This document shows, in pieces, positions 10,069 through 16,329 of a DNA stretch of 64,000 bases. This DNA comes from Halarchaeum grantii (GTDB taxonomy: Archaea; Halobacteriota; Halobacteria; Halobacteriales; Halobacteriaceae). The first letter of the stretch is position 1; each line of letters opens with the position of its first letter. The notes beneath the pieces were generated by a model that made no database searches, was not told the DNA's origin, and saw only the letters and a program-made list of their open reading frames with translations. The stretch spans positions 62,001 through 126,000 of the forward strand of contig NZ_BMPF01000004.1 of NCBI RefSeq assembly GCF_014647455.2, in the 5' to 3' direction. The position numbers and the translations under genes are program-made.

Positions 10069-11001
10069 ATGGAGAGCCACAACCACGACACGACGACAGA
10101 TTCAGACCACGACCACGGCGACGGCAACCATACCGAGCCGCGAAGTATACGTAAACTCGGCGTCGTCGCCGCGATTAACACGGCTGGCTTCGTCATCGAA
10201 CTCGCCGGTGGTCTCCTGTTCGGATCGCTTGCACTCCTAAGCGACGCCGTCCACATGCTCTTCGATGCGCTGTCGTATCTGATGGCGTTTGCAGCCACCT
10301 ATGTCGCCGACCGGTACGAGGAGCGCGATTTGTGGACGTACGGACTCCACCGACTCGAACCGTTCGCCGCCCTCCTCAACGGGGTGCTCCTCGTCCCGAT
10401 GGCGCTCGTCATCCTCTACGAGTCCTACCAGCGATTCTACAACCCCGTCGACCTCGACCCGACGATGACCGTCCTCCTCGCCACGGGCGGCCTCGTCGTG
10501 AACGTCGCGTCCGTCGGCTACCTCCACGGCGACGAACTCAGCCTGAACGAACGCGGCGCGTTCTACCATCTGCTCGGCGATACCGGGGCGTCCGTCGCGG
10601 TCATCATCTCGACCGCCATCGTCGCCGTCTTCGAGATCCGCATGGTAGACCCGATCACGGCCGCGCTCATCGCTGTCGTCATCATCTGGTCAGCATACAC
10701 CGTGTTGCGTGACAGCCTCGACCTCCTCCTCGAACGTAGCCCGATTCCGATCGCCGACCTGCAGGCATCCCTCATGTCGATCGAGAGCGTTGAGGCGGTC
10801 GAGGACTGCCACGTCTGGCAGGTCTGTAGTCGGCTTACCATCGGGACAGTTCGAGTCAAGGTCTCAGTCGATTCGCTCAATACCCAAGAGGAGCTACGGG
10901 CGACTATCCACGAGAGACTCCGAGACGCCGGCCTTGACCACGTCACTGTCGAACTCGTGAACGAAGCAACGACGCACCGCACAACTACCCATACACATTA
11001 G
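10069..11001 (+). CDS. CDF-family divalent cation (Zn) antiporter (310 aa)
   Basis: Cation diffusion facilitators exchange Zn2+ (or Cd2+/Co2+) for protons. The sequence shows a His-rich N-terminal tail (HNHDTTTDSDHDHGDGNH), six membrane spans, and the paired HxxxD metal-binding motifs in TM2 (VHMLFD) and TM5 (HLLGD). A cytoplasmic ferredoxin-like C-terminal domain (VEDCHVWQVCSRLTIG) and a short His tail follow. The HxxxD pair suggests the Zn branch, as in ZitB/CzcD. It lies 58 nt behind the Zn-type ATPase and before a second P-type ATPase, so the three probably form one metal-export operon. Confidence 0.9.
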   Translation: MESHNHDTTTDSDHDHGDGNHTEPRSIRKLGVVAAINTAGFVIELAGGLLFGSLALLSDAVHMLFDALSYLMAFAATYVADRYEERDLWTYGLHRLEPFAALLNGVLLVPMALVILYESYQRFYNPVDLDPTMTVLLATGGLVVNVASVGYLHGDELSLNERGAFYHLLGDTGASVAVIISTAIVAVFEIRMVDPITAALIAVVIIWSAYTVLRDSLDLLLERSPIPIADLQASLMSIESVEAVEDCHVWQVCSRLTIGTVRVKVSVDSLNTQEELRATIHERLRDAGLDHVTVELVNEATTHRTTTHTH

Positions 11002-11080
11002 CGACCGTGACGCCCACCATGATACAGAGACATACCCCGCTAGCTCAGGCGCGTCTCCGTTCGGACTCTACGAGGCGACC

Positions 11081-13417
11081 GTGACTACGTGTTCGTTCTG
11101 CGGCCGCGAGATCGATAGCGAGCCGATTCGTGATAACGGGGAGGTGTTCTGCTCGCGTGGCTGCCAACAGGGGGAGACGAGAACCAGTGGCGCACACATC
11201 GAACACACTCCTGAGACAACGCAGCAGACTGACGGCGAGACGGCGTATTTCTCGATCAGCGGCATGCATACGCACGCATGCGAGTCGTATCTCGAGCGAC
11301 GCGCTGTGACACTCGATGGCGTCAGCGGTGCGTCCGCGAGCTATACGGCCGAGATGATGCGCGTCAGCTACGACCCCGAGGCGGTTGAGCGTGACACCAT
11401 CGAGGACACACTTTCTGCATGGGGATATCGAGCCTCTGCGCCCACACCAGAGGAAACACCCGCCGACCGGAACGACTTCGACTTCGACCATCTCCGCACG
11501 ATTTTCTCCGTGATTGCCGTCGCACCCATCTACATCATCTATGCTGCCTTCTTCTACCCCGTCTATCTCGGACTCCTTCCGACCTCCTCACTCGATAATC
11601 ACGCAATCGTTACTGGTCTCTACGGGCCTGTCGCGATGTTCACCACGATCACTATCTTCGGCGTCGGATTCCCCATCCTCCGGTCGGCCTACATCAGTCT
11701 CCACGAACGCCAGCTTACTGTCGACGTCCTCATCTCCATCACTGCGGTGAGCGCCTACGCGTACTCCATGGTCTCACTGCTCTATCTCGACCGTCTCTAC
11801 CTCTTCTTCGATATCGCGACGGCGGTCATCGTTCTCACGACAATCGGGAATCACGCCCGTGCCCGATATAAACGCCAGGCGGTCGAAGACCTCACCGAGT
11901 TCGTCGACGAGACAGAGACCGCTGCACGCCGCCTCCTTGAGGACGGGACAACGACGATCGTCCCACCCGAGGACTGCACGACTGGGGATCGGCTTCTCGT
12001 CCGGCCGGGCGAACGAATCCCACTTGACGGCACGATCGTCGATGGCCGCGGAACGGTTAACGAGGCGCTCATCACTGGCGAGGCACGACCCCAGCGTAAA
12101 GTCGTCGGCGACACGGTCATCGGTGGCTCCATTGCCGCCGACGGCTCATTCGAAATCACGGTCGACGAGGGGGCGACGAGCACACTCGACCGACTCCGCG
12201 ACCTCGTCTGGGATCTCCAGACCGAACAGTCCCCGGCCGAGCGGCTCACGAACCGTGTGACAGCAATCTACATCCCGGTTGTCTGTGTCTTCGCACTCGT
12301 CACACTCGGTGCGTGGACGGTTGCTGGCGCGCCAGCCGAACCCGCACTTCGGACGGCACTCACCGTGCTGATTATCGCCTGCCCCGTCTCCCTCAGCCTC
12401 GTCACACCACTCGCCGTCGGTCGTGGGCTCTCAACGGCTGCCGAGCGAGACGTCCCGGTTTTTGATCAGACGATCCTTGAACGGGTGACCGACGCAGACG
12501 TCATCGCGTTCGACAAGACCGGAACACTCACCACCGGCGAAATGCGTGTCGCCGCCGTCCACGCAGTTGAGGAGTGCGATAGTAAGGCGGTTCTTCGGCG
12601 GGCAGCGGCCGTCGAGTCACGTTCGAGCCACCCGATTGCCGCCGCAATCCGCGACCGTGCACCGGACCGCTCACAAGCGGTTACGTCGTTCGAACGGTAC
12701 CGCTACGGTGTCGTGGCCGACGTGGACGCGTCGCGGACGGCCGTCGGAAACCCCGCACTCTTCGACGACCTCAACTGGAGCATTCCCGAAGCCATCCGTG
12801 ACACAATCGACCGTGTCCGTGACCGTGGCGAGCTCCCAACGGTCGTCGGCTGGGAGGGGACCGCAACAGGCGTGATCACACTCGAAGATCAGCCCCGCGA
12901 GAAGTGGACGGAAACTGTCGCGGAGCTCGCGGCCGATGACCGACAGATCGTGGTCATCACGGGCGATGATTCACGCGTTGCACGGCAGTTCGAGGCACAC
13001 CCGGACGTCTCCAAGGTCTACGCGGACGTCCCACCGGAAGCGAAAGAAGAGCTCGTCCGTCGCCTCCGCGATGAGGGTGTCGTCGCGATGGTGGGGGACG
13101 GGACGAACGACGCACCAGCGCTTGCCGCTGCTGATCTCGGTGTGGCGATGGTCTCCGGAAGTGACTTCACCGTGACTGTCGCGGACGCTCTCGTAACGGC
13201 CGACGATCTGACGCCGTTCCGCGATCTCTTCGGAATCGCGCGTGGGACACGGCGTCGCCTTCTCGAAAATCTCGGACTCGCGCTCACAGTGCCTGCTATC
13301 GGTGTCCCGCTCGCTGCCGTTGGGTTCGTCACACCGCTCGTCGCGACGACGCTAATGGCGACCGGAACCATACTCGTGCTCGCAAACAGCTACCGCCCCC
13401 TCACCAGCAACTTGTGA
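11081..13417 (+). CDS. P1B-like ATPase with atypical metal-binding residues (778 aa)
   Basis: GTG start. A TRASH/YHS-like Cys cluster (CSFCGRE and FCSRGC, residues 4-29) precedes one HMA-like domain whose motif reads GMHTHACESY, so the first Cys of the usual C-x-x-C is lost. Catalytic motifs are intact: TGE, DKTGT (D478), SSHP, TGDD and GDGTNDAP. The TM6 motif is CPV (434-436) rather than CPC. The last TM pair reads LTVPAIG and LMATGTILVLANSYR in place of the YN and MSS copper ligands of CopA. It is therefore probably a transporter, but its ion cannot be assigned. Its TGA lies at the left duplication of the nested IS5-type element. Confidence 0.85.
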   Translation: MTTCSFCGREIDSEPIRDNGEVFCSRGCQQGETRTSGAHIEHTPETTQQTDGETAYFSISGMHTHACESYLERRAVTLDGVSGASASYTAEMMRVSYDPEAVERDTIEDTLSAWGYRASAPTPEETPADRNDFDFDHLRTIFSVIAVAPIYIIYAAFFYPVYLGLLPTSSLDNHAIVTGLYGPVAMFTTITIFGVGFPILRSAYISLHERQLTVDVLISITAVSAYAYSMVSLLYLDRLYLFFDIATAVIVLTTIGNHARARYKRQAVEDLTEFVDETETAARRLLEDGTTTIVPPEDCTTGDRLLVRPGERIPLDGTIVDGRGTVNEALITGEARPQRKVVGDTVIGGSIAADGSFEITVDEGATSTLDRLRDLVWDLQTEQSPAERLTNRVTAIYIPVVCVFALVTLGAWTVAGAPAEPALRTALTVLIIACPVSLSLVTPLAVGRGLSTAAERDVPVFDQTILERVTDADVIAFDKTGTLTTGEMRVAAVHAVEECDSKAVLRRAAAVESRSSHPIAAAIRDRAPDRSQAVTSFERYRYGVVADVDASRTAVGNPALFDDLNWSIPEAIRDTIDRVRDRGELPTVVGWEGTATGVITLEDQPREKWTETVAELAADDRQIVVITGDDSRVARQFEAHPDVSKVYADVPPEAKEELVRRLRDEGVVAMVGDGTNDAPALAAADLGVAMVSGSDFTVTVADALVTADDLTPFRDLFGIARGTRRRLLENLGLALTVPAIGVPLAAVGFVTPLVATTLMATGTILVLANSYRPLTSNL

Positions 13418-13423
13418 TAAATC
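13416..13423. repeat. 8-bp target-site duplication of the nested element, left copy
   Basis: GATAAATC, overlapping the last two bases of the upstream ATPase stop codon. The partner is at 15630-15637. Confidence 0.85.
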
Positions 13424-13475
13424 GGCTCTGTTGAAATCCTCGGAGGGTTACAGGTTCGCCCGGTAGTCTGACCGG

Positions 13476-14297
13476 ATGCAGGCCCTCCCAAAGTCGCAGT
13501 TGCTTCGGTTCGTTGAGCAGGCATATCACTTGGCTCGGCGAGCTGTTGCCCGCTACTCGTCAAAGTTCTCGAAACGACGGTACACACTCCACAAGCACAT
13601 CGTCTTGCTCCGTCTCAAGGTGCGGAAGAATACGACGTACCGGACGCTCCTTGACGAACTTATCGAGATGCCTCGCATTCGGAGCGCCCTTGGTCTTGAG
13701 GAACTCCCGTCTCCTTCGACGTTGTGTAAGGCGTTTAACTGGCTCGATATGGCGGTTTGGCGTGTGCTGCTCAACCTCTCGGTTACCCTCCTCCCGACCA
13801 ACGGTGTCGTCGGTATCGATGCCTCTGGCTTTGACCGTAGTCACGCCTCGAAGCACTATACGAAGCGAACGAAGTTGACGATTCAGCAGTTGAAAGTCAC
13901 GCTTCTCGTGGACACGAGAGCAAATGCTGTCCTCGACGTACACGTAACAACAACACGAAAACACGACTCGAAGATCGCGCCGTCGCTCATCAAGCGGAAT
14001 ACCGGGGAAGTAGCAGTTCTCCTCGGCGACAAGGGATACGATGATCAGAAGATTCGCGCATTAGCCCGTGAAACTGGTGTTCGTCCGCTCATCAAGCACC
14101 GCGAGTTCTCGTCTCTTCACAAAGCGTGGAATGCTCGGTTGGATGCCGATCTCTACGGTCAGCGCAGTCAAAACGAGACGGTAAACTCTCGCCTCAAACG
14201 AAAATATGGCGCATTCGTCCGCTCACGGCACTGGTGGAAGCAGTTCCGTGAACTCGTTGTCTGCTGTCTCACTCACAACATCGACAAGGCACTTTGA
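13476..14297 (+). CDS. IS5-type DDE transposase (273 aa)
   Basis: The protein shows the haloarchaeal IS5-type order: an N-terminal helical DNA-binding part (LPKSQLLRFVEQAYHLARRA), then the first Asp in VVGIDASGFDRSH, the second Asp in LLGDKGYDDQ, and the last acidic residue in QSQNETVNSRLKRKYG-like sequence (here QRSQNETVNSRLKRKYG). These correspond to DDE catalysis. The length matches the family and the frame is intact. It lies 52 bp inside the left inverted repeat of the nested element. Confidence 0.92.
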   Translation: MQALPKSQLLRFVEQAYHLARRAVARYSSKFSKRRYTLHKHIVLLRLKVRKNTTYRTLLDELIEMPRIRSALGLEELPSPSTLCKAFNWLDMAVWRVLLNLSVTLLPTNGVVGIDASGFDRSHASKHYTKRTKLTIQQLKVTLLVDTRANAVLDVHVTTTRKHDSKIAPSLIKRNTGEVAVLLGDKGYDDQKIRALARETGVRPLIKHREFSSLHKAWNARLDADLYGQRSQNETVNSRLKRKYGAFVRSRHWWKQFRELVVCCLTHNIDKAL

Positions 14298-14340
14298 ACG
14301 TTCAATAGAGGGAATCCACCTAATGCTCTTGCTCAACGGT

Positions 14341-14949
14341 TCACTCCTGTTCTCCGCGGCAGTTCTGTTCCCACTCCTGACGAGCAATACTGTATCGGAC
14401 GGAGTCGCGTGGCTCTCCGTCGATAACGAGTTCATTACGGATTTGACCCTCTTTATGACCACCGAATCGCTCAACATATTTCTCAATGGCTTGCCGGGAG
14501 TTCGTGTTTTCAGGGTCGTGTGTAACCGTCACAATTTGGAGGTCGAGTCGGTCGAACGCGAGTTTGAGAAAACGAGCAGCTCGTTCTCCAGAGTACCCTC
14601 GTCTCCAGAAGGGCTTTCGGAGCCACGTCCCCAGTGTCGCCAGTTGACGGTCCCAATCTGGATGTATTCCAGCGAGACCGGCGAATTCGTTAGCGTGTTC
14701 GCCGTCTTTCGGTCGAATCACGTAGGTAGCGTTCTCTCCGTTCTCGAACTCCGTCCCACACTGCTCGACCCATTCGAACGCCGCTTTGGGGTGAGAGTAT
14801 GAGTTCCACGTGACGTACTCGGTTATTTCGTCAATTCCGGGCGCTCCTTCTTGGACGTGAGTATAGAGTTCGTATGGGTCAAACTCATCCTGATGGAGCC
14901 GCTCGTAGCGTAGCCGTTCACTCTCCATCTCCACTGGAAACACTGGCAT
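14341..14949 (-). CDS. GNAT-family N-acetyltransferase, IS passenger
   Basis: RimJ/RimL-type GNAT proteins transfer acetyl groups from acetyl-CoA. The sequence has the N-terminal ESERLRYERLHQDEFDP strand-helix, a central FAGLAGIHPDWDRQLATLGT segment, and the acetyl-CoA loop region around LRKPFWRRGYSGERAARFLK (the R-R-x-G-Y/x-G type A motif). HDPENTNSRQAIEKYVERFGG follows, as expected of the C-terminal half. About 202 aa from MPVFPVEMES; an upstream ATG at 14976 is also possible. The acceptor substrate is unknown. It lies inside the IS5-type element, antisense to the transposase and 43 bp from its stop, so it is probably mobile cargo. Confidence 0.8.
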   Translation of the reverse strand: MPVFPVEMESERLRYERLHQDEFDPYELYTHVQEGAPGIDEITEYVTWNSYSHPKAAFEWVEQCGTEFENGENATYVIRPKDGEHANEFAGLAGIHPDWDRQLATLGTWLRKPFWRRGYSGERAARFLKLAFDRLDLQIVTVTHDPENTNSRQAIEKYVERFGGHKEGQIRNELVIDGEPRDSVRYSIARQEWEQNCRGEQE

Positions 14950-15110
14950 TATCACTACGATTCGAGGAGCAGTCAAAATCGATTTGTCATCCCACTGACA
15001 ATATGTTCACCCACTTACGGAGTATCTGTTCTCCCCTGAATTTGGTCATGAAAACTGTCTCGGTCTGATGAATACCTTCAATAAGTACAGCGAAGAAAGT
15101 AGTCGTAGTG

Positions 15111-15503
15111 CTACGGACGGGCTGAACCGTTACGAATCCATTGCAAGGCGCTGTCGCGGTTGTCTAGTTGGAAGTATCGCATCTGGTCGGGAGCAACTGG
15201 CCAGACTGGCCGTATGGCTCGCCACTGGTGAAAGAGTAATTTTGCCCAGAACGAGTCTCCGACGCACGCATAGGAACGAATGTCGAACTCGGGTCCGTAT
15301 CGAAGGTCTGGAAGAATCCCGTGCAGATGGGTGAGATACGTCGTTGCTGTCCAGTCGGGAACTTCCTCATACACTCGGATTGACCCATGTTGCTTCGTTC
15401 GTTCAATGAGCAGCGAGTAGAACTCCTCGTAGCCGTCAGCAGTACCATTCCCGACACGTACCGCAATGAGATCGTCCTCTGTCGCGTCCAGTATCTCAAA
15501 CAT
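15111..15503 (-). CDS. SpoIIAA-like (STAS/SEC14-type) protein, IS passenger
   Basis: About 130 aa from MFEILDATEDDLIAVRVGNG. The pattern of a short strand, a helix containing YEEFYSLLIERTKQHG, a strand (IRVYEEV), a segment with YACVGDSFWAKLL and the terminal RDSALQWIRNG matches the SpoIIAA-like family, a STAS-fold group of unknown role. The start at 15503 is preferred over the upstream ATG at 15575, whose extra residues look non-homologous. It lies just inside the right inverted repeat of the IS5-type element, on the same strand as the acetyltransferase. A linked function is possible but not shown by the sequence. Confidence 0.7.
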   Translation of the reverse strand: MFEILDATEDDLIAVRVGNGTADGYEEFYSLLIERTKQHGSIRVYEEVPDWTATTYLTHLHGILPDLRYGPEFDIRSYACVGDSFWAKLLFHQWRAIRPVWPVAPDQMRYFQLDNRDSALQWIRNGSARP

Positions 15504-15629
15504 CCTTAGTGAACGAAATCGAATAAATGTATCAAAGTTCCGGTGGTCGCTCGACGGATCAGTTCGCAGTCCCACCCAACAGCTGTTTCAGCAGGAAAGG
15601 TGTGGAATCGATAGGACTTCAACAGAGCC

Positions 15630-15637
15630 GATAAATC
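15630..15637. repeat. 8-bp target-site duplication of the nested element, right copy
   Basis: GATAAATC, identical to 13416-13423. Removing 13424-15637 restores a continuous sequence from the ATPase stop codon to the right end of the 12.2-kb element. Confidence 0.85.
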
Positions 15638-15669
15638 GGATAGCGGCAGAGCCGATCGGCACCGTGTGC

Positions 15670-15695
15670 ATTGAGACAGCCAGTCTCAACTACTG
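15670..15695 (-). repeat. Right terminus of the 12.2-kb element, with a perfect stem
   Basis: TTGAGAC-agcca-GTCTCAA (15671-15689) is a perfect 7-bp stem. The outermost bases, read from the right, give CAGTAGTTGAGACT, matching the left terminus over ten bases. Confidence 0.65.
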
Positions 15696-15703
15696 CGTAG
15701 TGA
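15696..15703. repeat. 8-bp target-site duplication, right copy
   Basis: CGTAGTGA, identical to 3481-3488. It begins the intact MFS N-terminal coding sequence on this side. Confidence 0.8.
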
Positions 15704-16329
15704 TCGTCGTCCTCGACCTCTAACTCCGCAAGGTGGACCGTCTCCTTGATCAGGAAGATAGAGACGAGGAACGCCAGCACGACGACGATGGCGAGGAAGT
15801 AGAACGGCTCCGGCCGAAGGCTCGTCTGGGCGGCGATGACGCCCGTAATCCAGGCGCCGACGGCGACGCCGGTGTAGCCGAACGCTTCGTCGATACCGAC
15901 CGCGAGACCGCGCTGGTCGGGGCCTGCGATGTCGATTTTGGCGTTAATTGCCATACTCCAAGTCAACGCCTGGTTGATCCCTAGTAAGATGTTCCCGACA
16001 GTAATCCACGCCCAGCTCGGGGCGTAAATGAGGATGATGGGCAGCGGGAGTGCGGTCGCCCAGCCGAGGACGAGCACGGGCTTGCGGCCGTACTCACCGC
16101 CCCATTTGCCGGCATAGAGGTTCAGGAGTCCCTTGACGAAGCCAAACGAGACGACGAACGATCCGATGACGAGGAGTGACTCGACGCCAAGTATGTCACG
16201 TCCCAGAACCGGGACAACCGCCCGCTCAGACCCGATGGTCAACCCGGTGGCGAATACGAGCAGGACATGCAGTGAGAACTGCCCGAGGTGTTCGCGGATG
16301 CCTTGTTTGTGTGCAAAGCCCGCATTCAT
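15696..16329 (-). pseudogene. MFS transporter, N-terminal half
   Basis: The start MNAGFAHKQGIREHLGQFSL is followed by TM segments 1-6 of a major facilitator, including the loop 2-3 signature region NLYAGKWGGEYGRKPVLV (G-x3-D/E-R-x-G-R-K type). About 211 native residues end at EDDDHY, where the 12.2-kb element begins. The frame then reads some 25 foreign residues to a stop at 15619. With the C-terminal half at 2822-3488 it forms one interrupted gene of about 430 codons. A half transporter is unlikely to work alone. Confidence 0.85.

Follow-up and report, generated by a model that had tools for sequence, protein, structure and literature searches.

Insertion sequences (ISs) are expected to carry only what their movement needs, and IS5 elements are usually about 0.8–1.6 kb long, with only a transposase between their ends. 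In the window analysed here, a 64-kb stretch of DNA from Halarchaeum grantii, a sequence-only reading suspected a single unusual IS5-type element, with a GNAT acetyltransferase gene and a SpoIIAA-like gene as cargo. The questions raised by this locus are whether the two genes are genuine passengers, whether the element stands alone, and how such cargo is acquired.

The whole unit spans positions 13424–15629 (2,206 bp), and the two copies of the 8-bp target-site duplication (TSD), GATAAATC, lie directly outside it at 13416–13423 and 15630–15637. The duplication is perfect and abuts both ends of the element. The left terminal inverted repeat (TIR), GGCTCTGTTGAAATCCT (13424–13440, + strand), and the inverted right TIR, GGCTCTGTTGAAGTCCT (15613–15629, − strand), differ by one mismatch in 17, and no other site in the 64 kb matches them with three or fewer mismatches (chance expectation for such sites, 0.07). 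The DDE transposase at the left end (13476–14297, + strand; 273 aa; PF01609) was assigned to the IS5 family by an NF033579 score of 209 bits versus a cut-off of 140, and is 97% identical in amino acid sequence to that of its nearest relative. Inside the ends, on the strand opposite to the transposase, lie two complete genes, encoding the GNAT acetyltransferase (14341–14949; PF13302, E = 8e-16) and a SpoIIAA-like (STAS-SEC14 domain) protein (15111–15503; PF11964, E = 9e-11), the starts of which were taken from the annotation of an identical Halarchaeum plasmid. The 16/17-bp inverted ends, the flanking 8-bp duplication, the IS5-type transposase at one end and the two opposite-strand genes unrelated to transposition had all been described in the sequence-only reading, and each was found again here. 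An ordinary right end near 14300 would have refuted that reading; no TIR within three mismatches exists there. With its two cargo genes and its length, the element departs from the usual IS5 layout, and it is by this departure that it is classed as a transporter IS (tIS). Although extra right-end copies occur in some relatives, a compound transposon or nested insertions can hardly be credited here, because the unit has a single transposase, one pair of ends and a right end without a second IS, and because the 64-kb window holds no other full copies.

Comparison with relatives divides the unit into modules. The conserved left module ends at 14298–14314 (+ strand), where conservation falls to background by approximately nt 895 of the element, about 20 bases past the transposase stop, and the relatives are unrelated beyond it. 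On the other side, similarity among the relatives has dropped to background about 70 nt inside the tip; the right-end module itself is 66 bp long and includes the right TIR (15564–15629, + strand). The SpoIIAA-like gene lies in a sharp-edged cassette (15086–15563) common to six contexts, and the junction between the two cargo genes (14950–15085) weakly resembles, in a by-eye/MAFFT comparison, the 92-bp sites that flank the SpoIIAA cassette in another locus, L232. The idea that the left boundary is itself a cryptic right end, which would place a TSD immediately behind the left module, was rejected, with four near-matches versus four in a control region.

The element is inserted at the stop codon of a gene for a heavy-metal P-type ATPase. 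The identical 2.2-kb unit is present on two plasmids of Halarchaeum sp. CBA1220, at the same site and in the same flank; the upstream sequence is identical over 4,008 bases, that beyond the right duplication over only 58 (15638–15694). Because site and flank are shared, these copies represent the same insertion event copied together with its flank, and were rejected as independent jumps. Upstream, the CDF transporter and P-type ATPase genes at 10069–13417 are identical on the two plasmids, which have an additional P-type ATPase gene upstream of this pair; this region and its CBA1220 counterpart suggest a putative mobile metal-resistance block. Divergence starts at 15695, which looks like the end of what may be another mobile or recombined segment. 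An MFS transporter gene at 15619–16329 (− strand) is truncated to its N-terminal half (profile positions 2–180 of 347), and its homology in relatives begins at 15695.

No independent insertion of the exact 2.2-kb unit was found, either in its own genome or among database copies; its mobility is inferred, and carriage as one unit has been shown for its relatives, as described below. The own genome contains no second copy of the GNAT or SpoIIAA DNA, and was therefore rejected as the source of the cargo; for the same reason, the cargo probably arrived together with the element, as far as can be judged from these comparisons. That genome does contain a decayed copy without cargo (C7, L002), and in a second case (C9, L003) a left end is fused to a gene for a membrane protein, a relative of which, recognised by eye on translations, adjoins the SpoIIAA cassette in G015. 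GNAT homologues with 65–78% DNA identity are present in 89 other genomes of the 394 sampled, the best of them covering only the reading frame, a pattern that would be as expected for a common host gene.

Of the 394 Halobacteria genomes sampled, 198 contain the left module (end and transposase, about 890 bp), and these represent 66 of 86 genera. For 144 distinct left-end copies, drawn from genome contigs, plasmids and retrieved regions, the 8 bases outside the left end were taken, and a right end bordered by a second copy of them was sought downstream. A TSD-matched right end, mostly with a perfect match, was found for 72 of the 144, whereas by estimate a match of this kind would arise by chance in fewer than 1 copy in 10,000. 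The remaining half had no TSD-matched right end in reach, which counts against the transporter-IS reading. The 72 TSD-bounded elements are 1,176–5,124 bp long; de-duplication left 67, with interiors of 218–4,166 bp (median, 639). These interiors are mutually unrelated in nearly every case, save for the last ~66 bp, which establishes the position of the slot between the transposase and the right-end module. The existence of an archaeal IS5-type element with GNAT and SpoIIAA-like cargo is thus supported by its anatomy and by its relatives, but it is not a single oddity: cargo is the rule in this transposase clade and varies from copy to copy. In the records seen, the clade members are labelled by PGAP only as 'IS5 family transposase'.

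The sequence-only reading had also looked to copies at other sites with different 8-bp duplications, and these exist for relatives, but not for the exact unit. In one genome, an identical cargo-bearing element occupies different sites with different TSDs (L215/L216), and in three genomes another (L178/L179 and the related L042) is found at sites with different TSDs. The cargo-bearing elements L224 and L226 are 99.7% identical and have different TSDs, and the identical copies L225 and L228 have exchanged flanks, as a putative recombination between two copies would leave them. By the comparison of these copies, the cargo-bearing relatives are shown to move as one unit. It remains conceivable that an ordinary IS lost its right end and trapped two host genes up to a stray end, as the decayed cargo-free relatives L110 and L002 and the lack of a known second site for the exact unit would allow. 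Such a one-off accident is nevertheless highly improbable, given the perfect TSD around so long a unit and the recurrence of this architecture across 67 de-duplicated elements, and the survey already disfavours it.

The interiors contain complete genes far above chance. For 60 interiors, the longest complete ORF fills on average 67% of the length, versus 41% (sd between null sets, 3.3) in 300 length-matched sets of random host DNA taken from the loci concerned, none of which (0/300) reached the observed value. This comparison demonstrates that the cargo genes are, as a rule, complete. Pfam families among the cargo include a PLP enzyme (PALP), TehB-type and O-methyltransferases, RibD_C reductases, Redoxin, a hexapeptide acetyltransferase, MatE and CorC transporters, HTH_10 regulators, an alpha/beta hydrolase and a pilin-like protein, and many cargo proteins have no Pfam family. 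A few elements contain fragment-like cargo (C-terminal Amino_oxidase in L104 and L186), and no convincing ORF is present in some of the short interiors (L091, L096 and L009). The main cargo ORF runs opposite to the transposase in 42 elements and along it in 22. The commonest family, DUF7344 (PF24035; L114, L165 and others), accounts for 4 of 70 cargo proteins, and 3 of 70 match the PADLOC model mad2, although an overlap between the two groups has not been established; a link of both to regulation or defence is possible. The contents are diverse, and nothing specifically indicates resistance functions. The cargo as a store of defence genes was rejected, since only those three proteins match a PADLOC model, and viral carriage was rejected because no match was found in phage records or viral contigs. 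A search for the L103 cargo elsewhere on plasmids gave no match.

ISH28, the nearest named relative, with a transposase 45% identical in amino acid sequence, served as a control. It resembles the window element in its IS5 transposase, its similar ends (GGCTCTGGTGAATCGC) and its 8-bp TSD, but has a fixed length of 938 bp, its right end finishing 32 bp after the transposase stop, and no copy examined carries cargo. An exact 8-bp TSD was found at 937–940 bp in six of the nine ISH28-like loci; of the others, one (L316) has ends at 937 bp without an exact TSD, and two gave no clear ends. None of the nine has cargo (0/9). About 50 ISH28 matches in 195 genomes are collinear from end to end. In a tree, 55 cargo-clade transposases were separated from the nine ISH28-like ones with a split support of 100/100. 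Because the control is fixed in length and cargo-free, and because the two clades are fully separated, the variable slot is a property of one clade, not an artefact of the method. As for the cargo-free 1-kb relatives, for which the sequence-only reading had allowed, those within the cargo clade are only decayed (L110 and L002), and no cargo-free 0.95-kb copy with a TSD was seen among the 144 distinct copies; it is the sister group that is uniformly cargo-free.

Comparisons between close relatives demonstrate that the cargo turns over. Only one of the 45 pairs of elements with the most similar left modules (identity about 90% or higher) shares its interior, and many of these pairs have unrelated right ends. 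The similarity of the left modules is only weakly correlated with that of the right ends (Mantel r = 0.23; 2 of 1,000 permutations as high), and for L095 and L223 the left modules are 96% identical and the right ends 49%. In L186, L072, L058 and L187, additional cargo and a second right end lie beyond an inner, partly mutated one. Conversely, the window element and L103, its nearest relative, are 97.4% identical in the left module and 98.5% in the right end, but have different cargo, and the ends were likewise kept while the interior changed in L115/L171 and L216/L095. The same cassette is also found in different element lineages: the SpoIIAA cassette is 87% identical between the window element and L073, whereas their left modules are 73% identical and their right-end types differ.

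Taken as a whole, the window unit is quite probably a cargo-carrying IS of one haloarchaeal IS5-family clade with an exchangeable gene slot. In the proposed mechanism, the DDE transposase would recognise the two inverted ends of 12–17 bp and move all the DNA between them, leaving an 8-bp duplication behind. The slot, which lies behind the transposase and ahead of the 66-bp module, accommodates one or two complete genes of host type, with frequent replacement on an evolutionary scale. For this replacement, the most likely route, which is inferred, is right-end switching: a left end would pair with a different, more distant right end (that of another copy or of a MITE, or a solo end), the DNA up to that right end would become the new cargo, and the previous cargo and the old right end would decay or be deleted. 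This route is ranked first because its putative intermediates are visible. It is supported by the unrelated right ends on the 96% identical left modules of L095/L223, by the L186/L072/L058/L187 composites, and by L235 (G017:C12, 6462–6583), an approximately 122-bp MITE in which two right-end modules meet head to head around a palindromic centre. A decayed pair similar to this MITE was seen in L236, and L029 (868–1595) has two inverted right-end copies around its cargo, plus an outer right end. Right-end switching alone, however, does not explain the clean left boundary of most elements, the different cargo behind the same right end in the window element and L103, or the SpoIIAA cassette shared by the window element and L073, each of which keeps its own right-end type.

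Precise cassette exchange is therefore kept open as well. In that case, a dedicated, integron-like recombination would insert cargo units with defined edges, and swap them, in the stretch from the left boundary to the right-end module, and the IS would merely carry the slot. The two pairs just named, with their lineage-specific right ends or with ends conserved around a different interior, fit such an exchange, as do the edges of the SpoIIAA cassette (..ACAGC.. and ..ATCAGTTCGCA), which are identical in six contexts: the window element, L073, G015, G042, pHTIA of Halorhabdus tiamatea, and G089, where the right end is decayed. Because these contexts share the same sharp edges, the cassette may, as they suggest, be exchangeable as a unit. 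Two of them (pHTIA, 276.7 kb; G042:C3) have no recognisable IS ends, but may be decayed IS copies; a distant IS5 transposase (43% aa) is encoded 1 kb away from the pHTIA cassette (L310). In L232 (G015:C57, 11621–12770), SpoIIAA and membrane-protein genes stand in a row, array-like, with direct repeats of ~90 bp between them. The 92-bp repeats on either side of the SpoIIAA cassette, two copies of which are 71% identical and a third of which was recognised by eye, would also favour exchange; they start like the IS right-end module and finish like the left boundary. Nevertheless, the element encodes no recombinase, and a hairpin or inverted repeat joining the slot edges was rejected, since it pairs no better within than between elements (854 of 5,000 permutations did as well; in a duplex test, 162 of 5,000 did). 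Cassette exchange is thus considered unlikely as the explanation of the slot. The broader idea of a haloarchaeal cassette-exchange system, with cassettes that also reside in direct-repeat arrays outside ISs and are swapped precisely into the fixed slot of an IS5-type carrier, is doubtful but deserves to be kept in mind; if true, it would correspond in function to integrons, with a DDE transposase as its basis.

Gap-repair filling, which has been proposed for Pack-MULEs, would also leave both ends in place around a changed interior, as in the window element/L103, L115/L171 and L216/L095: a break left after excision would be repaired on another template, and foreign DNA would be gained inside the element. 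Haloarchaea are polyploid, which would suit this process. It should, however, often yield gene fragments, whereas the interiors are enriched in complete ORFs, and it does not account for the recurrence of the same cassette with identical edges; it is accordingly judged improbable.

The cargo clade reaches half of the haloarchaeal genomes sampled, and the complete gene that it carries changes with almost every copy; its sister clade carries no cargo. Heavy gene exchange is known in haloarchaea, and the clade offers a simple route for it, in what looks like a widespread vehicle moving single genes between haloarchaea. Genes within these elements are currently annotated as ordinary host genes, and the clade provides a clean system for how an element of about 1 kb gains and trades cargo.

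Among known systems, mobile insertion cassettes and MITEs have ends in common with the window unit and could be moved in trans, whereas the window unit has its own intact 273-aa transposase. Integron cassettes are similar in that diverse single genes stand beside a mobility gene and the same cassette occurs in different backbones. In contrast to integrons, the window unit has no IntI tyrosine recombinase, its sole mobility gene being the DDE transposase, and it uses DDE transposition with a TSD. As for attC sites, none was found in the absence of an attC model; 92-bp direct repeats do flank the same cassette in L232, and in the window they are only weakly visible. Archaeal integrons have been reported in nine phyla, and Halobacteria are unmentioned in the text of that report (PMC9668308). 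No report of a haloarchaeal IS5 transporter case was found in the literature outside subscription journals and ISfinder. The tISs are an accepted category of passenger-bearing ISs (PMC3129680), and the window element shares with them IS-like ends, one transposase and passengers unrelated to transposition. Unlike in tISs, the passenger of the window clade differs in almost every copy and occupies a fixed slot before the conserved 66-bp right-end module. On the sequence evidence, the window element would be a variant of the known tISs, one not previously reported as far as found.
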